From contig JAFZQU010000019.1 in assembly GCA_017620255.1 (NCBI GenBank), forward strand, positions 1-64,000: a stretch of 64,000 nt of DNA. Reading direction: 5' to 3'. A program made the translations under genes and the position numbers. Source of the DNA: Lachnospiraceae bacterium. GTDB lineage: Bacteria > Bacillota > Clostridia > Lachnospirales > Lachnospiraceae. The stretch's first letter is position 1, and every line of letters starts with the position of its first letter. Positions 48 through 60,700 of this stretch are shown here, in pieces. The notes below the pieces were generated by a model. That model did no database searches, was not told the origin of the DNA, and worked only from the letters and a program-made list of their open reading frames with translations.

Positions 48-339
48 CTACGTGTACGCTCTGATACTTTTATGTTTTACACGTAGTTTTTCACCGCTTT
101 TGTCTCTGGCCTACGTGTAACCGAAGCGATTATTGGTTATTTACACGTAGTTTTTCTCTGTTTTCGTCCATATACTACGTGTAAACGGAACGTTTTCGCT
201 TACTTACACGTAGCCAGCCTCTGTTTCCGTCCATATACTACGTGTAAACGGAACGTTTTCGCTTACTTACACGTAGCCATCCTCTGTTTTCGTCCATATA
301 CTACGTGTAAACGGAACATTTTCACTCACTTACACGTAG
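48..339. repeat. Periodic inverted-repeat array 1 (CTACGTGTAA / TTACACGTAG)
   Basis: Ten half-sites of ten bases alternate in orientation, starting at 48, 77, 111, 141, 175, 204, 238, 267, 301 and 330. CTACGTGTAA is followed after 19-20 bp by its complement TTACACGTAG, then a 24-bp linker, so the unit is 63-64 bp. The last three units are nearly identical in loop and linker, which points to tandem duplication. Each pair could form a hairpin or cruciform with a 9-10 bp stem. No good open reading frame or T-tract is seen. The array lies just past the 3' end of the xre gene, and whatever lies further left is outside the window. The function is unknown. Confidence 0.93.
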
Positions 340-2760: not shown

Positions 2761-5700
2761 TCAAACACCTTCGATCTCAAACCTGCTGCCGTCCCGCCTC
2801 TTCTCCACACGGATCTGCTGCGGGATGTTCTCGATCAGCTCTTCCCTGTGGCTGATCACGCCGACCAGTTTATGCGCGCCGGACAGATTGATCAGCGTCT
2901 CCAGTGCGCATGCGATCGACTTACGGTCCAGCGTTCCGAACCCTTCATCCACAAACAGCGCATCCATCTGCACGCCGCCGTTGTTGGCGGAAACGGTATC
3001 GGAAAGTCCGAGCGCCAGACTCAGGGACGCCTTGAAGCTCTCACCGCCTGAGAGATTACCGACAGGCCTTCTGTGCCCCGTGTAATTATCAAGCACTTCC
3101 AGATCCAGGAAATGCGGTTTATCCCTTTCCTGTCCGACTTCCTTCCTGAACAGTTCGAACTGGCCCTCGCTCATCGGGTAGAGCCGCCGGTTCGCCGCAG
3201 CGATGATCCCGTCAAACCCGGTCGCCTGAACATACTGCTCAAGCGTGATCTTCCCCTGTCCGGTCGTTCCGCGCACCAGCGCATACAAACGCTTGCAGAT
3301 ACTGAATTCCTTTTCGGCCGCATCAAGATCATCCTTCAGATCCGCCATATGGTCTCTCTTGTCTATATTGGTCGTGATCCTGTTGTGCAGTGTGTTTTCC
3401 GCTCTTCTGATCTCAGCGACCGCATCTGTTTCCGCCTCACACACAGCCGTCAGTTCACTGATGTCGATGCGTGTTTTTCCCGCCGCATCTTCTTTCGCCT
3501 GTGCAAGCTGCGTTTTGTTATTCGAGACCGCCTCGCTGTAAGCGCGGATCTTTCCTTCTGTCTCTTCCAGTTCCTCTGCAGTCACGACAAACGAAAGCAT
3601 TTCTTCCGCCCCGTCAAAATCATGCGCCGCCAGTTTGGCATCAAGCGCCTTCTTTAGCGTCTCCTCATCTGCCTGCTGGATGGCGTACGTCTCTTTGAGC
3701 GTCTGCAGCGTACTCTCTGCCGCGGTAACTTTTTGATCGGCTTCCGTCCTGGCTTCCGTTGCCTGCCCGATCGCATCCGTGAGCGTCTTTACTTCTTCCT
3801 GCGCTTTTTCTTTATGCGCGCCGGCTTCTTCCCAGTCTGCAAACTGCAGGGTGGCAAGTGTATGCAAGGTCGTGCGTGTTTCCGTAAGCGATGCCTCCGC
3901 TTTCCTCTTGCGCTCTGCCATCTCTTCTTTTTGACCGGATAAGGCTTCCGTTTCCGCACCTTCCGCCTGCAAAAGCGATGCCTCTGACTCATTTAACAGG
4001 TTGCAGTCTTTTTCGGCTGCGATCTGTACCGCCGTATTCTCTTTGATCTTTGCATCCACATCTGTGCGTGCATCTTTTGTCTTCGTAAGCAGTTCCTGAA
4101 GAGCAAGGCCTTTTGTATCCACGCCAAGGACATGATCTTCGAGACACTCCAGAAGGTCTGTGCGAAGCTGTGATTCAAACTGTTCCAGTGCCGTCTTCGC
4201 TTTTTCCGCTTCCGTGTTGTCCGCGGCCTTTTGTTCCTGCGCCCGGTTTTCCTTATTCTTCAGTCCCTCGAATTCTTCCTCGCTGATCACTTCTTCAGGC
4301 ATCGCCGCAGGTTCCGGATGATGCGTCGAACCGCAGACGGGGCATTTCTCTCCCTCTGTCAGGGACTGCGCCAGAATGCCGGCCCTGTTGCAGGACAGGA
4401 TCTTGTCCGCCCGAAGCAGTTCCCTGTTTGCTTCTTCATAAGCCTGCAGGGATTCCCTGAACCGGTTTTGTTTATCCGCAAGGTCCTGCTCCATCTGCAC
4501 ACGCTCTGCAAGTTGTACATCGAGGACATGCGCGATCTTTTCCTTCAGTTCGCCAAGGTCTTTTCCCGTTTCCCTGATACGCACCAGTTCTTCCGGCCGC
4601 TCCTTCAGATCCGTGATCGTCTTTTTCAGGGCTGCGATCTTCTCTTTTAAAGCCTTCTCTGCCTCCTGCAGGCCGGCTTCGTCTGCTTTGATCTTTTCCT
4701 CTTCTGCTTCGAGGTTTTTCAGTTTTTCCGTCAGTTCGCTGCGCTGCCGGTATTTGCTCTCTTCTCCCTCGATCTGTGCGATCGTCTGCTTGAGTGTCTC
4801 CACTCTGGGTTCCTGCTCTTTTGCAGCCGCAAGCAGATCTGCCGCTTTTACGGCATCTTCTTTCGCCTGCGCCAACGTCTCTTTTTGTATTTCGATCTGC
4901 TCTTTTGTGGCCGCTGCTTCCGCACGTTTGCCGGACCATGCGGTATAGGCGGGATTCACTTCATGCGTAGCCGCTTTCCGGCGTTTGACTTTTTCTTCCG
5001 TTTCCCTGATCTCATCCGCCTGTTTCTTCAGCTCTTCCTGCTCGGTTTCAAGCGCAGCAAGCCTGTCGATAAAACGGTTGTTGGTCTCTGCCGTTGCAAG
5101 TTCCGCCTGCCGTTTGTTCAGTTTTGCTTCTGCCTCTTTCAGTTCTTTTTGCAGACTCTTAAGGCGCTCTTCATCTTCCTTCAGGATCTGCGCAAGCAAA
5201 GTCAGCATCTCATCCAGGTTCCAGGCACTGCCCGTCTTTTGGGCACTCTCTCTTAACTGCGCAAGTTCCGCCGCATACGCACTTCCCGCATCCGTCTGCA
5301 CGTCGTCAAAATACTGCAAAACGCTGCGCTCCGTCCTTGTTTTTTCATCCTTGCCGCGGTCCATACGGTTCTTTAACACATCCACCATTCTCTCGTAAGG
5401 CTGTGTCATGAAAATGTTGCGCAGGATCACCGTACGCGTTTCCGTTTTGGCGTTTAACAGACCCCAGAACTCGCCCTGTGCGATCATCACGATCTGCTTG
5501 AACTGCTTCTCGTCGATGCGCAGCAGCTCCTTCACGGCTTTTTCCACGTTGGTAAGACCCTCTATGGGCGTCATCCCCTCTTCGTAAAAGACGGTTTTTC
5601 CCTTTTCCGTAAGCGTACCGCTGCCGGTCTTTTTATCACGCTCAAATGAAGGCTCCCTGTAGACATGGAAAGACCTTCCCTGATGCGTGAAGTAAAAATC

Positions 5701-5940
5701 AACATAGCTCTGCACGCTCAGCGGCGCATACTCGCTGCGCAGGCCGTATTTGTCGCGGTAAGTCCCGCTGGTCACTCCGTAGAGTGCAAAGATGATCGCA
5801 TCAAAGATCGTGGTCTTACCGGAACCTGTATCACCGGCGATCAGGAACAGGCCCTTGTCTTCAAACTGTTCAAAATCGATCCATGGCATTTCCCCGGCAT
5901 AGGGTCCGAATGCGCAGATCTTTAATTTAACCGGCTTCAT
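2761..5940 (-). CDS. sbcC: Exonuclease subunit SbcC (SMC-like ATPase)
   Basis: 1059 residues with the Rad50/SbcC layout. The N-terminal half-ATPase has Walker A GDTGSGKTT near residue 37. Long charged coiled coils follow, interrupted by the zinc hook CPVCG near residue 531. The C-terminal half has the ABC signature LSGGESFKASLSLALG and Walker B FVDEGFGTLD. With SbcD it forms the SbcCD nuclease, which cleaves hairpin and cruciform DNA and blocked ends. It overlaps the sbcD stop by 14 bp, as is typical of sbcDC operons. The window holds several long inverted repeats, the kind of structure this complex acts on. Length and motifs are complete. Confidence 0.98.
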   Translation of the reverse strand: MKPVKLKICAFGPYAGEMPWIDFEQFEDKGLFLIAGDTGSGKTTIFDAIIFALYGVTSGTYRDKYGLRSEYAPLSVQSYVDFYFTHQGRSFHVYREPSFERDKKTGSGTLTEKGKTVFYEEGMTPIEGLTNVEKAVKELLRIDEKQFKQIVMIAQGEFWGLLNAKTETRTVILRNIFMTQPYERMVDVLKNRMDRGKDEKTRTERSVLQYFDDVQTDAGSAYAAELAQLRESAQKTGSAWNLDEMLTLLAQILKEDEERLKSLQKELKEAEAKLNKRQAELATAETNNRFIDRLAALETEQEELKKQADEIRETEEKVKRRKAATHEVNPAYTAWSGKRAEAAATKEQIEIQKETLAQAKEDAVKAADLLAAAKEQEPRVETLKQTIAQIEGEESKYRQRSELTEKLKNLEAEEEKIKADEAGLQEAEKALKEKIAALKKTITDLKERPEELVRIRETGKDLGELKEKIAHVLDVQLAERVQMEQDLADKQNRFRESLQAYEEANRELLRADKILSCNRAGILAQSLTEGEKCPVCGSTHHPEPAAMPEEVISEEEFEGLKNKENRAQEQKAADNTEAEKAKTALEQFESQLRTDLLECLEDHVLGVDTKGLALQELLTKTKDARTDVDAKIKENTAVQIAAEKDCNLLNESEASLLQAEGAETEALSGQKEEMAERKRKAEASLTETRTTLHTLATLQFADWEEAGAHKEKAQEEVKTLTDAIGQATEARTEADQKVTAAESTLQTLKETYAIQQADEETLKKALDAKLAAHDFDGAEEMLSFVVTAEELEETEGKIRAYSEAVSNNKTQLAQAKEDAAGKTRIDISELTAVCEAETDAVAEIRRAENTLHNRITTNIDKRDHMADLKDDLDAAEKEFSICKRLYALVRGTTGQGKITLEQYVQATGFDGIIAAANRRLYPMSEGQFELFRKEVGQERDKPHFLDLEVLDNYTGHRRPVGNLSGGESFKASLSLALGLSDTVSANNGGVQMDALFVDEGFGTLDRKSIACALETLINLSGAHKLVGVISHREELIENIPQQIRVEKRRDGSRFEIEGV

Positions 5941-7081
5941 CGTTCACTCCTGCCTCTCCTGCTGCCATCTGCATGATCTCCATTTCCTCGTCGCTGATCT
6001 CACAACCGTACATCATTTGGTAAAAATCACGCACCAGATCCGTAAACGACTTTTCCTGCGTGAACGCGGAGATGCTGCTCTGTGCGATCTTTCTTGTATG
6101 CGAATTGTCGTAATCGATCTTGACTGTGTTGGGATAGGTCTGCTGGAAAATGGCCATCGCATCGTTGATGATATCTTCATCCGTCAGCGTCGCATAGATA
6201 AAATCATCCGGTGCCTTCACGTTCTTTTTATCCAGCAGTTCTTTCAGCGTACCGCGGATATGCCGCATGTCGCGAAGCGGTTTCAAAGGATGCAGTTCTA
6301 CCTCCACCTCTTTTTTGTTGACCGTGATGATGGGCACTGATTTTTCGTTATTCACTTCACTTAGGGAATACTTCAGCATGGATCCCGCATAGCGTACCGT
6401 GTCCCGTCCGACACGCTGCGGGGAATGGATATGACCGAGCGCCACATAGTCAAACGCGTCAAACACATCATAACCGATCTTCTCGACAAGTCCCACGCTC
6501 TGGGTACCGGCGCTCTCGGATCCGCCCAGCGCGGGATCTTCACCCCGTCCGGAAACAAACTGATGCGCGATCAGGATGTTCGTCTTCGATTCGTCGATCT
6601 TTGTATGTGCGAGGATCGTGCGGACGGCTTCCTCATAGTTGTCGATGCCCTCGTCCGGATAATAATGCTTCACGCGCGAAGCCTTGACGAAGGGCAGCAT
6701 GTAAATGCAGACTTCCGTGTCGCCGTCCTTTATCACCTGATGTTCCAATGTGCCATCATAGAGCGCGGAAATATAGATCTGATGGGCCTGCAACCCCCAG
6801 CTTCCGAAGTTCAGCCGGTCATCCGAATCATGGTTGCCGCTGATCATAAAAGTCTTTACCTGCATCGTGGAAAGCCTGCTTAGAAACGAATCCAAAAGGC
6901 GCACCGCCGCTTCGCTCGGGATCGCCTTGTCATAGACATCGCCCGCGATCAAAACGGCATCTGCCTTTTCCGTTTCGATCAGCTTTAAGATCGCATCCAG
7001 CATGTACTTTTGATCTTCGATCAGGTCAAAATCACCTAAGGACTTTCCCAGGTGCAGATCACCCAGATGTAGCAGTTTCAT
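5927..7081 (-). CDS. sbcD: Exonuclease subunit SbcD (Mre11-like)
   Basis: A 384-residue calcineurin-type phosphoesterase. The metal-binding motifs are in order: GDLHLGK near residue 7, GDVYDKAIP near 48, SGNHDS near 82, then a distal histidine segment and GHIHSPQ near 215. The C-terminal part matches the SbcD cap and SbcC-binding region. It is the nuclease subunit of SbcCD. The ATG follows GGGGTGGG. The gene lies 36 bp after the double-glycine zinc-ribbon gene and overlaps sbcC, so it is the central gene of an operon. Confidence 0.97.
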   Translation of the reverse strand: MKLLHLGDLHLGKSLGDFDLIEDQKYMLDAILKLIETEKADAVLIAGDVYDKAIPSEAAVRLLDSFLSRLSTMQVKTFMISGNHDSDDRLNFGSWGLQAHQIYISALYDGTLEHQVIKDGDTEVCIYMLPFVKASRVKHYYPDEGIDNYEEAVRTILAHTKIDESKTNILIAHQFVSGRGEDPALGGSESAGTQSVGLVEKIGYDVFDAFDYVALGHIHSPQRVGRDTVRYAGSMLKYSLSEVNNEKSVPIITVNKKEVEVELHPLKPLRDMRHIRGTLKELLDKKNVKAPDDFIYATLTDEDIINDAMAIFQQTYPNTVKIDYDNSHTRKIAQSSISAFTQEKSFTDLVRDFYQMMYGCEISDEEMEIMQMAAGEAGVNDEAG

Positions 7082-7379: not shown

Positions 7380-8087
7380 CTATCTGGAATAATATTCGTA
7401 ACCGTTGTCCAGACAGATCGCTGCCAGGCGGCCGCCCGGGAAGCAGGCGCCGCAGTCGATCGCGATATGGTTGTTCTTCCGGTAGATGTAACCCGGATTC
7501 GGATTGTCGTCTATTAACTGTGTCGGCGTATGGCCCGTGATGACATAGGTGTCCGGGAAATACATGGTCTCATAATCGGCGCGGTCCCACATCAGTTCCT
7601 TGAGCGAGTAGTCATCGATCTCCTTATCCGGAGAGTAATTGCCGAGCCCCGCATGTACCAGCAGGTATTTCTGTCCGTTCACGATGATCTCTTCGCAGAC
7701 GGAGAATTCGCGGATGTAATCGATGACGGCCTGCTGTCTCTCGGACTGCAGTTTGCGGAATTCCTCGATGGTCGGGGCGCTGCCGTTTTCTGCCCAGGTG
7801 AAAAAGTTTTCGGTGACCTCGGGCGTGAGTTCGCGGATTGATTTTTCCGTGATCTCCTTCCGCAGAAAACGCAGGCAGTCGAGCGCCATGAGTTCGTGAT
7901 TCCCTGCGATGGGAATGACATTTTTCATCCCCATGAGGTGGATCAGCGTCCGGATGGGCTCGGGTCCCCTGTCGAGCACGTCCCCCAGGATATAGAGGGA
8001 GTCATCCGGCTGCAGGTTGATCTGCGCCAGCAGGGACAGGAACTGCTCATATTCACCATGAATGTCTGAAATCACATAAGTAGCCAT
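7380..8087 (-). CDS. PPP-family metallophosphatase (ApaH / Ser-Thr phosphatase-like)
   Basis: 235 residues with the full PPP signature: SDIHGEYEQ near residue 7, LGDVLDRGPEP near 35, AGNHELMAL near 61, VHAGLG near 145 and GHTPT near 178. Members remove phosphate from phosphoproteins or cleave diadenosine tetraphosphate symmetrically. The sequence alone does not decide between these. It is the first gene of the cluster leading to sbcDC. It has AAGGTAGG before the ATG. A protein-phosphatase role is of interest because the window encodes a Ser/Thr kinase without an adjacent phosphatase. Confidence 0.9.
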   Translation of the reverse strand: MATYVISDIHGEYEQFLSLLAQINLQPDDSLYILGDVLDRGPEPIRTLIHLMGMKNVIPIAGNHELMALDCLRFLRKEITEKSIRELTPEVTENFFTWAENGSAPTIEEFRKLQSERQQAVIDYIREFSVCEEIIVNGQKYLLVHAGLGNYSPDKEIDDYSLKELMWDRADYETMYFPDTYVITGHTPTQLIDDNPNPGYIYRKNNHIAIDCGACFPGGRLAAICLDNGYEYYSR

Positions 8088-8130
8088 AACGATCCTACCT
8101 TCTATTATACGATTTCAAAGTCGCTTTGGT

Positions 8131-10506
8131 CTATGCGGTTTTTCCGATCCTTGAAACCCGTTTGAAAAGGGCGGCACATGCGAACCGGAAAAGGGCGCGG
8201 CTGTTTTCTTCCATCTGTGTGACCTGCAGGACCGCTCCTGCCTGCGAAGTATGCTCTGCCGCCGAAGCCTGTCCATCCTGCATAACCGGTGCGTAGAGCA
8301 ACCGCTCATATGTATCGATAAAGGAGAGGAACCGGTCGGGAACGCTTTCCGTAAGGCGTGTCCTGAATTCAGACAGTGTTTCACCATTCTGTAACCGGAA
8401 TCCCAAAAGCTGCAGCGTGCGTACATTTCGCCTGCAAAGTGTCAGGCTCTTCTCTCTATCATCCATCCGTCTGTAGCGGTAACGCCTGCCTGTCAGATCG
8501 GTCAGAAGGAACAGGGCCAGGAAGGCAGGTACCAGTAAAAGCGTGATCTTTAGGAAACGTCTGCCTGCTGCCATACGCTCCGCTCTTTCTCTTTGTTCCC
8601 TATCCGCACCGGCGTCCTGTAAATCCACGGAAACATCCGTATCCGCAAACGGGTCTCCCGTAAGCTCCGTATCGCCGACATATTCCGTGTAAAGCGGATC
8701 GTTCGGATTCAGCGCATAACTTGCATAGTCGGGATCATCCGGATCAAGCACGTAGCCCTGATAGAGCACGCCTGCCTCATCCGTGACCGCCCAGCCCGTG
8801 ATCCGTTTGTATCCGGGCGTCGGTTCAAACGTGATCCAGCCGGCGCCGTCCAGATAGGCTTCCGGCCAGGCGTGCGCACGGTTTGACTGCACTTCGAAAT
8901 TGCGATTGCGGGATAAAATACTGTATCCCTGATGGAACCTTGCGGGGATCCCTGCTGCCCTGGACAAGAGCACAAAAGCAGTCGCATAATGCGTGCAGAA
9001 TCCTTCCGGTTTTTCAAACAGGAAATAGTCAAGATAGTCTTCTTCCGAACGGATCCGTTTCGGCAACTGTCCCGGCGACCTGTTGTATTGCTGCGTCGAC
9101 AGATAATGCTCGATCCGCTCGAGTTTTTCCATGTTGTCTGCAGCGCCTGCAAGCAGATCGTCCAGGAAGTCCTGCGTACGTTTTGTCACCGTCACGGGTT
9201 TCCCGTACAGGTCAAACATCCGCTCCCTGTAGGCGCGGTAATTATCCATGCTGTATGCTTCGCTTTCATCCGGCACATATCTGTCAACGGCTTCATCCCA
9301 TGCTTCTTCACTGACGCCTCTGCCCTGCCTTGATTTTTCCGTAGCGGCAAGCATCTCCCGAAAGATCTTGTGGTCGCGGTTGATGCGCATATATCTGACA
9401 GTATAATCGGCCCACTTTCTGCCCTGCAGCATCCAGTCGCCGCCCTGCTCATAGAGGGCCGCATTCTGTGCCACGAGGTCTCTTCTGATCACGCCGTTTG
9501 CATCCGTGTTACGCATATCGATCGCGGATCTTGCAGGCAGAAACAGATGCGAAGTGCGGATCCCTTTATAGGTGATGTGCAACGGCACCGCGCGGATATA
9601 GTCCTTGATATGGTCGCTGTCGTAAGAGAGGATCGCGGCACTCATCTCCAGCCGGTCAAAGGTCCGGTAATCCATCTCTGAATCATCGGTCTTGATCCAC
9701 TCCCTGCCCGTGAACGTATCGAAACTTTTGCCGCTTAAGTAAACGCGGTAATCATTGTCAAAATCAGCGCTGACCTGCATTACCGTATAGGGACTCCCCT
9801 GGACCTTGCCGTTAAGCAGGGCTTTGTCCGAAAACCCGATGTTGTCGGTACCGTCCCATCCCCGGTCGGACAGTAGCGTCTGCACGATGACCTCGTAGCG
9901 GATCCTGACTTCCTTTGCAATGTCTTTTACAAACTTCCAGTCATAGGGTTTATCCGGTGCTTTTACAAGGATCGGCAGGATGAACGGAAGCAGAAGGAAC
10001 GGCAGCATGAATACGATATGTTTTGTCCTGTCCGTATAGCCTTCTTTTTTCCAGCCGCGTTGGATCAGTTCCGCCACTGTGACAAAGAAATAGAAAAACA
10101 GGGCTGCAAAGTTCATGCGGCTGACCGGATATTCGAAGACCATGAGCAGGATCAGGGCCGCAAGGAATAAAAGCGCCGTTGTGATCCTGACAGGGAAGTA
10201 GCGTCCCGCGACCTTGGAAAGCAGGAACGTTGCCACCGTGAGCAGTGCCGTATAAAGGAACGGCAGCAGGGAGGCATCCGGTTTCATATGTCCCGCATAA
10301 ACGGCACCTGACAGGGCTGCCGCAAGAATGCAGCCAAGCACGATCCGTCCGCGGTTATGCAGATGGATGAACAGGGTGCTTATGATACAGACGGTAAAGA
10401 TCAGGATTCCGGTGGGAAGTCCCCTGTCCAATTCCCGGAAAAAGATGCTTCCGGTCAGGATCAGGCCAATACTCATCGGCAGTGCATACAGGAGGTCGTA
10501 TAACAT
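8131..10506 (-). CDS. Transglutaminase-like membrane protein (TgpA-type)
   Basis: 791 residues from the ATG at 10506. This start overlaps the upstream stop as TGATG and has AAAGGAGG before it; a start 51 bases earlier is possible but would overlap more. The N terminus has five or six membrane segments, then a large, probably outward-facing region. It contains a transglutaminase core near residues 470-560: GFCTHYATAF with the catalytic Cys, AHAWPEAYL with the His, and GWITFEPTPG. A further membrane segment lies near residues 640-660, with a cytoplasmic tail. It forms an operon with DUF58 and MoxR, the known TgpA/YebA neighbourhood. The substrate is unknown; a role at the cell surface is likely. 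Confidence 0.9.
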   Translation of the reverse strand: MLYDLLYALPMSIGLILTGSIFFRELDRGLPTGILIFTVCIISTLFIHLHNRGRIVLGCILAAALSGAVYAGHMKPDASLLPFLYTALLTVATFLLSKVAGRYFPVRITTALLFLAALILLMVFEYPVSRMNFAALFFYFFVTVAELIQRGWKKEGYTDRTKHIVFMLPFLLLPFILPILVKAPDKPYDWKFVKDIAKEVRIRYEVIVQTLLSDRGWDGTDNIGFSDKALLNGKVQGSPYTVMQVSADFDNDYRVYLSGKSFDTFTGREWIKTDDSEMDYRTFDRLEMSAAILSYDSDHIKDYIRAVPLHITYKGIRTSHLFLPARSAIDMRNTDANGVIRRDLVAQNAALYEQGGDWMLQGRKWADYTVRYMRINRDHKIFREMLAATEKSRQGRGVSEEAWDEAVDRYVPDESEAYSMDNYRAYRERMFDLYGKPVTVTKRTQDFLDDLLAGAADNMEKLERIEHYLSTQQYNRSPGQLPKRIRSEEDYLDYFLFEKPEGFCTHYATAFVLLSRAAGIPARFHQGYSILSRNRNFEVQSNRAHAWPEAYLDGAGWITFEPTPGYKRITGWAVTDEAGVLYQGYVLDPDDPDYASYALNPNDPLYTEYVGDTELTGDPFADTDVSVDLQDAGADREQRERAERMAAGRRFLKITLLLVPAFLALFLLTDLTGRRYRYRRMDDREKSLTLCRRNVRTLQLLGFRLQNGETLSEFRTRLTESVPDRFLSFIDTYERLLYAPVMQDGQASAAEHTSQAGAVLQVTQMEENSRALFRFACAALFKRVSRIGKTA

Positions 10507-22602: not shown

Positions 22603-22767
22603 ATACACTCGGTTTCTTGTTTTTCGCCCAATCAAGTGTCTCCTTAGAAAAAGCGCTTGGAGCAGAGACACTCGGGTCTTCGTTTGAAGTGCATCCGAGT
22701 GTATGTTGACGAAATATCCGGCATATCCATACACTCGTAAACAGCATCCATCTTCAATGGAGTGTTC
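22603..22767. repeat. Periodic inverted-repeat array 3 (ATACACTCGG / CCGAGTGTAT)
   Basis: Six half-sites alternate in orientation, starting at 22603, 22632, 22666, 22695, 22729 and 22758. Gaps are exactly 19, 24, 19, 24 and 19 bp, so the period is 63 bp, as in the arrays at 48 and 60362. Three sites match ATACACTCGG at nine or ten of ten positions (22603, 22695, 22729), one at eight (22666), and two keep mainly the AGTGT core. It lies in the 414-bp gap between the kinase at 22532 and dus at 22947. Overlapping short frames on the minus strand exist here, but none has a credible start. Confidence 0.8.
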
Positions 22768-22870: not shown

Positions 22871-22966
22871 GGATCTGCCATGGGATCTGCCACAGGATTC
22901 ACCACAGGATTTACTGCCGGCTTCACCATGGGATCTGCCACCGGTTTCACCATGGGATCTGCGCGC
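22871..22966. repeat. 12-bp tandem repeat, eight units, at the 3' end of dus
   Basis: Eight adjoining 12-base units with consensus GGATCTGCCATG run from 22871 to 22966. The dus stop codon (22947) lies inside the tract. In the neighbouring minus-strand frame the tract would encode a tetrapeptide repeat of the type ADPM-VKPV. Copy number could change by slippage. A role as coding extension, RNA structure or neutral repeat cannot be decided. Confidence 0.85.
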
Positions 22967-52900: not shown

Positions 52901-53287
52901 CGCTCCTACAGCATCAAATACTCCTTTGTTTTCATAATCCCGGCGGTATCTTTTTAAAACACGCGTTACACCCTGCATGTCTTTGACAAGATAGATATCG
53001 GAATCTTTGCTTCGTAGATATTCTATGATTCCAAATATGTTTCCCGTCTCATCAACAGCCCTGTACACGTTTCGTCCGTTATTAACACCCGCCTGCTGAA
53101 TACTGTAAAGATGCTTCCCTGCCTTTATTCTGCGTATAACAGTCTGCTGTTTTTTTTCTTTTACGGAAGAGGAGGCGGCCGATTCCGGCGCAGACACCGG
53201 CATATACTCGGTCCTGCCTGCTTCCCGGGCAGGCATATATTCAGTTTTGCCGCCTTCCGGCACCGGCATATATTCAGTCTTATTCAT
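49949..53287 (-). CDS. Membrane Ser/Thr protein kinase with TEYMP repeats
   Basis: 1112 residues. The N terminus has three repeats, KTEYMP, KTEYMP and RTEYMP, at residues 3, 14 and 25. The kinase domain is at about 60-345: a candidate lysine in RVLKRYRR, LVHRDIKPENIM near 205, IIDFDAAAL near 225 (DFD in place of DFG), and TPQYAPPE. Residues 350-880 are a large helical region I do not recognise. A membrane segment lies near 893-915, then an outside domain of 195 residues. It overlaps the AAA+ gene by 4 bp. Probable target motifs are its own TEY repeats, read by the FHA protein of the same operon. The kinase-membrane-outside layout recalls EssB, but EssB is a short pseudokinase. Confidence 0.9.
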   Translation of the reverse strand: MNKTEYMPVPEGGKTEYMPAREAGRTEYMPVSAPESAASSSVKEKKQQTVIRRIKAGKHLYSIQQAGVNNGRNVYRAVDETGNIFGIIEYLRSKDSDIYLVKDMQGVTRVLKRYRRDYENKGVFDAVGAYLQRSRNPGVSRLQEFGEMQEIDELGNPSSTARWYFVFPQYKPIRQRPDDTTFVKWVGILNEALHEIHTDGNLVHRDIKPENIMLDPATDLPVIIDFDAAALLDQKAGGLDYAETNGAFLTPQYAPPETRNESSGYAEPASDYFSFGVTLTEIYSGMNLLRQSLFKDARDLNRQVLYDEITFPASVETNPNVLNLVKALMCYKSRERAGYEEVVSWLSDPGTFVHQKYRSPIMGFHYEIGDRQFDSPEALAVYFSTNNYDCILQWENGGLFRYAEKIRDDYKPLYDGLFEIKREYENKSREQGAPEGRELQPWQKAFVYAIIRVLDPYADFAWDDVIYPYDQIRNASDAIVKDVLSSGHQFDALFENDIVFRYRLRLGQDASDRKLRDHLNDISGFAETEMKKLLYAEALSPGTLVRILGKGKFNSVKAFVTQYMMTLRKDIVNGGIDSAMQCFYADGKPRSAFASFVQFCNHTYVFDALFVCGGYGEGYRKLLAPKNKGQILMKDIFRAITVVAAFCEDRAAFANEVLSSGQGILGYFLWHIRKSEHNGLFVGYGELACQNLNQIHEAENTYNKIVYERKSPAMWRTLGEFFTNLKDRLDIFYDFLVFDDARKKAYLDQTVPKDNYIICIKDGIMIYRFFDSFRIVSLAQEALGENGKGLCIESEPVAYADDDILQGTQQESTEGQPEEPDDWNKEDCTAYDIAMYMIPLFQKQKPVSQEPLSAPQESHPEPAGSKPPLRSAQDSFSSSSSAHPTSPKKKRKNKVIWILVGIFVAFGIVSGIKEKIAEEKAADQATGQILYEGEAAETQMSDAEPNEDREDSYSAKNTPMIDFSKYYVSEESFLETYRDHLRNEVAPNVENGNYYKIVYGERNESDGWIAYDIISEEGNAHIGQIGFQKDTDGSIQTVTMLSDTTALPTILISLLRPNTPMDRIVSFVKDLGPDDPNVGFVHYDSLYYRMTYHENAGTYVTIITINQAYLGN

Positions 53288-60361: not shown

Positions 60362-60700
60362 CTACGTGTAGATTTGCCTTTCCTGCTCATTTTACACGTA
60401 GTCTCAGCTTGAAATCCGGGATTGACTACGTGTAGATTTGTCATATCCTCTCATTTCACACGTAGTCTCAGCTTGAAATCTCGGAATAACTACGTGTAGA
60501 TTTGTCATATCCTCTCATTTCACACGTAGTCTCAGCCTGAATTCCGGGAATTATTACGTGTGATTTTGCCATATTCCCAAAAGTTACACGTAGTCCCAAC
60601 ACAGAATACGTAAATGACTACGTGTAAAACCATCAATATAATAAAAAATACACGTAGCCGCCCGGAAAACCGGCCCAAAACCACGTGTAAAGCATAAAAA
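60362..60700. repeat. Periodic inverted-repeat array 2 (CTACGTGTAG / TACACGTAG)
   Basis: Eleven half-sites alternate in orientation, starting at 60362, 60392, 60426, 60456, 60490, 60520, 60554, 60594, 60628, 60658 and 60691; the last has no partner. Loops are 20 bp, except one of 30 bp, and linkers are 24 bp (the last 23). Half-sites are nearly the same as in array 1, but the loops and linkers are different sequences. It fills most of the 60185-60758 gap, between the GH3 start and the terminator of the 84-residue gene. The remaining 60185-60361 stretch shows no clear gene. Confidence 0.93.

Follow-up and report, generated by a model that had tools for sequence, protein, structure and literature searches.

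Repeat arrays of several kinds have been described in bacteria. The bacterial interspersed mosaic elements (BIMEs) of enterobacteria are clusters of alternating inverted extragenic units built from repetitive extragenic palindromes (REPs), CRISPR arrays have regular repeats of about 60 bp and adjoin a nuclease gene, and in type III toxin–antitoxin loci such as ToxIN a repeat array lies upstream of a nuclease gene. TnsA is a PD-(D/E)XK nuclease, and we know of no cognate array of phased half-sites for it or for Bax1, I-Bth0305I or Vsr. In the REPtron, as set out in PMC8266576, an enzyme gene is flanked by cognate repeats and enzyme and repeat co-evolve; according to PMC3733652, REPs may occur grouped, many carry GTAG at one end, and reports of GTAG REPs cover Proteobacteria, Cyanobacteria, Chloroflexi and PVC but not the phylum of the genome studied here. 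We analyzed an array of ten short half-sites (array 1) at the start of a 64,000-nt stretch of a Lachnospiraceae bacterium genome (assembly GCA_017620255.1, contig JAFZQU010000019.1, positions 1 to 64,000, hereafter called the window). Array 1 probably belongs to a set of extragenic copies, dispersed through the genome, of the array cognate to a dedicated PD-(D/E)XK-type nuclease, which would bind and spread such arrays in a REPtron-like manner. A search of the open-access literature, with most subscription papers and bioRxiv outside its scope, gave no description of this pairing of array and nuclease, and the system is apparently undescribed in bacteria.

A sequence-only reading of the window had described array 1 as ten half-sites alternating in orientation with regular loops and linkers, and all ten were found where it had placed them, + and − by turns, with the loop and linker lengths given in Table 1. 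Nine of the ten were exact copies of CTACGTGTAA, the first being CTACGTGTAC, and throughout the window the word was matched 22 times at no more than one mismatch against 1.18 expected, a number reached in none of 100 shuffles. The same reading had named a coding region, a known repeat family or random spacing of the half-site elsewhere in the genome as findings that would speak against it. Array 1 overlapped no called gene, the window gave no match to Rfam 15 at gathering score, and an unbiased search for the exact pair CTACGTGT-N22-25-ACACGTAG gave 55 occurrences in the own genome and none in 396 other genomes of the bacterial family, the reversed pattern giving 0; the check for random spacing thus did not tell against the reading. 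What lay beyond the view of that reading is the cognate nuclease and a whole family of differently worded arrays.

Table 1. Coordinates of the arrays and of the nuclease assigned to the CTACGTGT word (window positions unless a contig is given)
Feature	Position	Strand	Description
Array 1	48..339		five inverted-repeat units with ten CTACGTGT half-sites in alternating orientation; four 24-bp linkers
Array 1 unit 1	48..86		half-sites 48-57 +, 77-86 −; 19-bp loop
Array 1 unit 2	111..150		half-sites 111-120 +, 141-150 −; 20-bp loop
Array 1 unit 3	175..213		half-sites 175-184 +, 204-213 −; 19-bp loop
Array 1 unit 4	238..276		half-sites 238-247 +, 267-276 −; 19-bp loop
Array 1 unit 5	301..339		half-sites 301-310 +, 330-339 −; 19-bp loop
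Third array	22604..22737		five half-sites of another word (CGAGTGTC, with one-mismatch forms); steps 29/34, period 63; no nuclease assigned
Array 2	60362..60690		CTACGTGT word; eleven half-sites: five units (60362, 60426, 60490, 60554, 60618) and a last half-site 60681-60690
Own nuclease for the CTACGTGT word	C11:41478-42281	minus	47 bp from an array; outside the window

The genome comprises 2.93 Mb in 48 contigs, the window opening contig C25, and contained at least 17 arrays of the CTACGTGT word with 140 half-sites in 68 units. Loops in these arrays measured 20 bp in 52 units and 19 bp in the remaining 16, so that all 68 fell at 19–20 bp, and linkers were 24 bp in 52/54 cases, figures that show tight spacing but are not unbiased counts, since sites were taken only with steps of 28–30 or 33–35. 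None of 23 own-genome arrays overlapped a called gene at a tolerance of 45 bp, including none of the 17 with the CTACGTGT word. Half-sites of different own-genome arrays were 97% alike, the likeness being 46% for linkers and 40% for loops, with random strings giving 30%, and the eight core positions of the half-sites were 95–99% conserved; both half-site figures are inflated by the acceptance of sites at no more than 2/8 mismatches. At argS, the gap to the neighboring gene was 337 bp with an array in the own genome and 19 to 201 bp in nine congeners with no such array by eye; in a search for signs of a miniature inverted-repeat transposable element or insertion sequence, the gaps of these nine were too diverged to show an insertion junction. 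In one congener (L064) the 201-bp gap contained, by eye, a long inverted repeat of another kind, which may be a further small mobile repeat. Array 1 begins 48 bp from the contig end and could thus extend leftwards. Arrays lie within about 350 bp of both ends of contig C25 (1-339 and 213793-213959 of 214159), and since both ends carry an array of this family, the assembly may have broken at them.

A protein family of about 270 residues recurred next to arrays in five genomes, in a comparison that assumed no partner beforehand. Relatives were found in 18 of the 19 other array-bearing genomes (best E ≤1.8e-56) and in 122/397 genomes of the bacterial family, with two copies in the own genome; of the congeners tested, two (G193 and G410) were without it and a third (G427) gave a weak match only, within a 1150-aa frame. 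One own copy stands beside an array of the CTACGTGT word (Table 1) and the second, on contig C33, has CACCCTG half-sites upstream. Fold matches of the C-terminal domain were to PD-(D/E)XK nucleases including Bax1, I-Bth0305I and Vsr, with which it shares the invariant E, PD and E residues, and the nuclease motifs with E164, D195 and E210 were present in 106/106 full-length proteins. The family thus shows both the core fold and the conserved acidic residues that characterize the PD-(D/E)XK superfamily, and we conclude that the array partner probably carries a nuclease domain of that type, with predicted activity. PADLOC profiles matched the nuclease domain in 5/5 members (PDC-S68, E 8e-27; HEAT_CxxC_PDDEXK) and PHROGs gave weak endonuclease and Holliday-junction-resolvase matches (best E 3e-4), while Pfam, NCBIfam and PDB, searched by sequence, gave no useful match. 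Matches of the N-terminal domain to prefoldins, ATPase stalks and other long-helix proteins were taken as uninformative.

Plasmids gave five partial matches, in genes annotated as ATPases or a helicase, and phages gave three matches, one of them near full length at 31% identity in an unverified faecal contig with no array within 1 kb upstream. The same nuclease domain was also seen at the end of far larger proteins, which carry annotations as AAA ATPases or helicases (PADLOC PDC-S68, larger frames and plasmid matches), and such proteins are a possible source of the solo nuclease.

For the analysis of nuclease neighborhoods we used 20 regions (one own and 19 chosen among array-bearing genomes) together with 40 regions from the 397-genome matches, the latter taken in list order with some places passed over, mostly near contig ends. 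The 121 nuclease matches corresponded to 108 distinct proteins, with some flanks clipped by contig ends. The flanks of each gene, at most 700 bp per side, were scanned with a word-blind detector that sought alternating chains of 8-mers, at no more than one mismatch, with regular steps of any length from 20 to 62; inversion in the detected arrays is therefore not itself a finding, being built into the detector. At a score of 5 or more there were 64 upstream and 12 downstream arrays, with 68 of the 108 genes having either, and the strong upstream arrays ended at a median of 98 bp from last half-site to start codon. At a score of 3 or more, 89 genes had an adjoining array and 19 had one on neither side. 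Among 306 control flanks of other genes, six rows reached 5, comprising four true arrays of this kind, one slicing slip and one unexplained row. Nine of the 306 reached 4 or more, deriving from array 2 (two), the 22.6-kb array (three), an L166 array (two), L178 (one, an artefact in which the whole locus had been taken as flank) and L162 (one, the unexplained row). That L162 downstream flank (7733-8956) showed TTCCGAAA half-sites at regular 49/48-bp steps, with no nuclease assigned.

Array words varied by nuclease copy (TACGTGT, TACGCGC, TACGGGT, TTACAGT, ACCGTAA, CCGACTG and many more). Similarity between words rose weakly with protein identity (Mantel r 0.23, reached in 0/2000 permutations), and the words therefore seem to change quickly. 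GTA or TAC occurred in 43/68 words against 16.2 expected from shuffled letters, as part of the half-site itself. Genome-wide tests of the pairing covered two words, both of which gave the predicted outcome. Pairs of TACGCGC, sought in 397 genomes, were expected to abound only where the nuclease neighbors that word; the two genomes of this kind (G073 and G377) had 48 and 43, six others one each and the rest none, and the reversed control pattern gave, by our own count, one or two pairs each in 13 genomes. The CACCCTG pair was found 11 times in the own genome, at five places, with a gap of 19 bp in 11/11 though 14–30 was allowed, and 0 in the reversed control. On these comparisons, the word tends to be specific to the nuclease copy.

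The sequence-only reading had further proposed an undescribed binding array with its sites on one face of the DNA, and an undescribed array on one face was supported by the periods of the 68 nuclease-linked arrays, which despite their different words were nearly always whole helical turns. These periods fell at 51–54 (27 arrays), 62–65 (28), 71–75 (9), 84–86 (3) and 94 bp (1), corresponding to 5, 6, 7, 8 and 9 turns, with 64/68 within 1.5 bp of a multiple of 10.5 against 29% expected, although the detector holds no preference for whole-turn periods. The best-fitting repeat was 10.6 bp (Rayleigh p ~7e-24, kinship ignored). In a set of weaker arrays that had not been used in finding the rule, 20/21 lay near a multiple of 10.5. 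Single-linkage clustering of relatives gave eight clusters at 40% identity (7/8 near a multiple, p ~0.01) and one cluster at 35%, and because it collapsed to so few, average-linkage and nearest-relative tests were added: the former gave 57/60 clusters at 50% identity, 26/28 at 40% and 10/11 at 35% (p ~0.002), and in the latter 21/26 period changes between nearest relatives were near multiples of a turn. Irregular steps inside arrays were near multiples of 10.5 in 11/15 cases, which is weak alone. In 32 arrays with a placeable TAC/GTA anchor, the TAC-to-GTA distance was 32–35 in 27, and the GTA-to-TAC linker was 18–20, 28–30 or 38–39 in 27. With the one distance near constant and the other stepped, the unit is close to fixed and the linker varies by turns.

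An alternative offered by the same reading, that the units are cruciforms or RNA hairpins, was not supported by the pattern of change within them. Thirteen own-genome units had a core change in one half-site and none of the 13 had a matching change in the partner, and half-sites within a unit matched at 604/680 positions, not above the mean of 610 for shuffled partners. Conserved singly and without compensation, the half-sites therefore suggest that the array resembles a binding platform of duplex DNA rather than a hairpin; each half-site is maintained independently of its partner, as a site of protein binding would be.

The view that array 1 still grows by duplication stood in part: its last three units are indeed near-copies at 63-bp spacing, and a change in unit number is plausible, array lengths differing between sister species. 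In two sister species with TACGCGC arrays, the arrays were co-located at 3/3 loci checked (best flank pieces 85–89% identical), with spans of 291 versus 1187, 677 versus 357 and 953 versus 621 bp. Arrays thus appear to originate within a lineage, to be retained there and to vary in length.

A looser pattern of three half-sites, sought in one genome per species over 84,980 species, gave 29 loci in what by isolate name were 19 genomes, namely 12 Lachnospiraceae, one Butyrivibrio, one Pseudobutyrivibrio, three other Clostridia-type bins, one Treponema bin and one WOR-3 bin. The WOR-3 record was a single three-site match and is probably due to chance; the Treponema bin, from buffalo rumen, had four loci. 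Most array-bearing genomes are metagenome bins, in which a misbinned contig is possible, above all for Treponema. The 28–30/33–35 spacing recurred among these genomes, with loops and linkers varying from one to the next. Viral contigs held neither an array of the three-half-site pattern nor a relative of the nuclease.

Compared with described systems, the arrays share with the REPtron dispersed extragenic palindromic repeats and a single dedicated enzyme gene with cognate repeats, and the GTAG end that many REPs carry may have a counterpart in the GTA/TAC of the present words, although this is part of the half-site itself. They differ in that a PD-(D/E)XK-type nuclease takes the place of the HUH tyrosine transposase TnpA-REP/RAYT, that the units are inverted repeats of about 37 bp whose loops are long and whose phasing extends over 5 to 9 helical turns, and that the half-sites in the own genome behave as single duplex sites instead of a paired stem. 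The Y1/HUH (RAYT) transposase family PF01797 had no match at E ≤0.001 in the own genome (48 contigs, 99.81% complete), with 5/14 control genomes positive, and RAYT was accordingly rejected as array partner. Because no such transposase was found and no hairpin constraint was seen, we do not consider the system a member of the REPtrons. With BIMEs it shares the alternating inverted extragenic clusters, differing in sequence and in having no RAYT found. As in ToxIN, a repeat array lies upstream of a nuclease gene, but the units here are inverted, phased as DNA and also scattered without the nuclease, and a signal of RNA pairing was not seen. The regular repeats of about 60 bp next to a nuclease gene recall CRISPR, from which the arrays differ in their very short inverted half-sites and in having no unique spacers, the intervals being related within and between arrays (to the degree given above for linkers and loops).

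The sequence shows the arrays, their dispersal, the pairing of nuclease and word, the helical phasing, the constraint on single half-sites and the differing lengths in sister species; that the nuclease binds, cuts and spreads the arrays is inferred, as is any advantage for the cell. The half-site, in most families TAC followed by a variable 4–5 bp, would be read as duplex DNA, and two inverted half-sites would form a unit of near-constant length that spans about 37 bp between its TAC and its GTA. As linker length changes by about one helical turn, bound proteins would remain on one face and could assemble side by side. The nuclease may bind this platform as a multimer, both beside its own gene, where it could exert self-control, and at the scattered copies; its action followed by repair may then copy arrays to other extragenic sites and alter their unit number. 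The nuclease and its arrays would thereby function much as a REPtron does, though with an unrelated enzyme. We give about even odds to the broader proposal that this is a new genetic element, in which a solo nuclease of fast-evolving specificity forms a phased multimer on its own half-sites and propagates its arrays, with dozens of specificities in about one-third of Lachnospiraceae-type genomes and relatives in a rumen Treponema bin, the array being both copying substrate and control region of the nuclease.

The protein could instead be a DNA-binding regulator derived from a nuclease, with the arrays as operators of its own and other genes and nuclease activity irrelevant to their scattering, a reading that we regard as unlikely. 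It would suit the strong arrays upstream of 64/108 nuclease genes, close to the start codon, the positions kept at all three sister-species loci and the observation that the 17 CTACGTGT arrays never lay in a convergent gap (0/15 classified). That avoidance is not significant, however, because convergent gaps are rare in the background (5/69), and CACCCTG arrays lay in such gaps, with no gene start to control there, in 3/4 classified cases. A rule that arrays are always upstream of a gene, which the 17 arrays had suggested, was dropped in view of the background gaps and the CACCCTG arrays. The genes flanking arrays moreover seemed unrelated in function, judging names by eye, and catalytic-type residues invariant in all 106 proteins would be unexpected in a pure regulator. 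We consider it still less probable that the system is a defence device, its nuclease stored or loaded on the arrays to attack invading DNA and its words changing fast as in restriction systems. The similarity to PADLOC candidate defence proteins, the wide differences between the words of nuclease copies and the patchy presence would agree with this, but the PADLOC match is confined to the nuclease domain, the recognized words abound in the cell's own genome, and no modification gene or other constant neighbor accompanied the nuclease, the largest recurrent cluster of neighbors comprising six loci.

That the arrays act as RNA or extruded DNA, for example as a type III-like RNA antitoxin upstream of a nuclease toxin or as protected mRNA ends, appears very improbable. 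Arrays do lie mostly upstream of the nuclease gene and their units are inverted repeats able to pair; nevertheless, neither compensated core changes nor an excess of within-unit pairing was found, whole-turn periods over 68 arrays fit duplex DNA and not RNA, and arrays are scattered without an adjoining nuclease. Ordinary selfish or structural repeats with an accidental nuclease neighbor seem hardly credible. In their extragenic position, alternating orientation and multiple copies the arrays do resemble BIME or REP clusters, yet an array adjoins 68 to 89 of the 108 nuclease genes depending on score, the TACGCGC search over 397 genomes singled out the two predicted ones, and a Y1/RAYT transposase was not found in the own genome. 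The reading of array 1 as a dispersed copy of the array of a dedicated nuclease is thus the one that we favor.

As for the remainder of the window, the third array (Table 1), which combines the geometry of array 1 with another word, may be an orphan of a lost nuclease; no nuclease with its CGAGTGTC-like word was found, and no genome-wide search aimed at one was made. Just to the right of array 1, a 102-aa frame at 401-709 (−) that is absent from the gene calls resembled by eye a small XRE-type helix-turn-helix regulator. Two overlapping frames at 2761-7081 (−), about 2.4 kb from array 1, resembled by eye what we take to be SbcC and SbcD; the SbcC/SbcD complex acts on DNA hairpins. Further short tandem repeats lay at 22878-22962 (period 24 bp) and 53195-53279 (period 33 bp), and the window held no tRNAs.

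The finding gives an orphan repeat a partner in a widespread, unnamed nuclease family, present in nearly a third of the genomes of the bacterial family that were searched. It offers a large natural set of protein–word pairs for the question of how one small DNA-binding protein changes its specificity, and the quantized period opens cooperative assembly on one DNA face to a direct test. If it is true that the nuclease spreads the arrays, the system would be a second, independent solution to the question that REP and RAYT pose, of how dedicated extragenic repeats originate.
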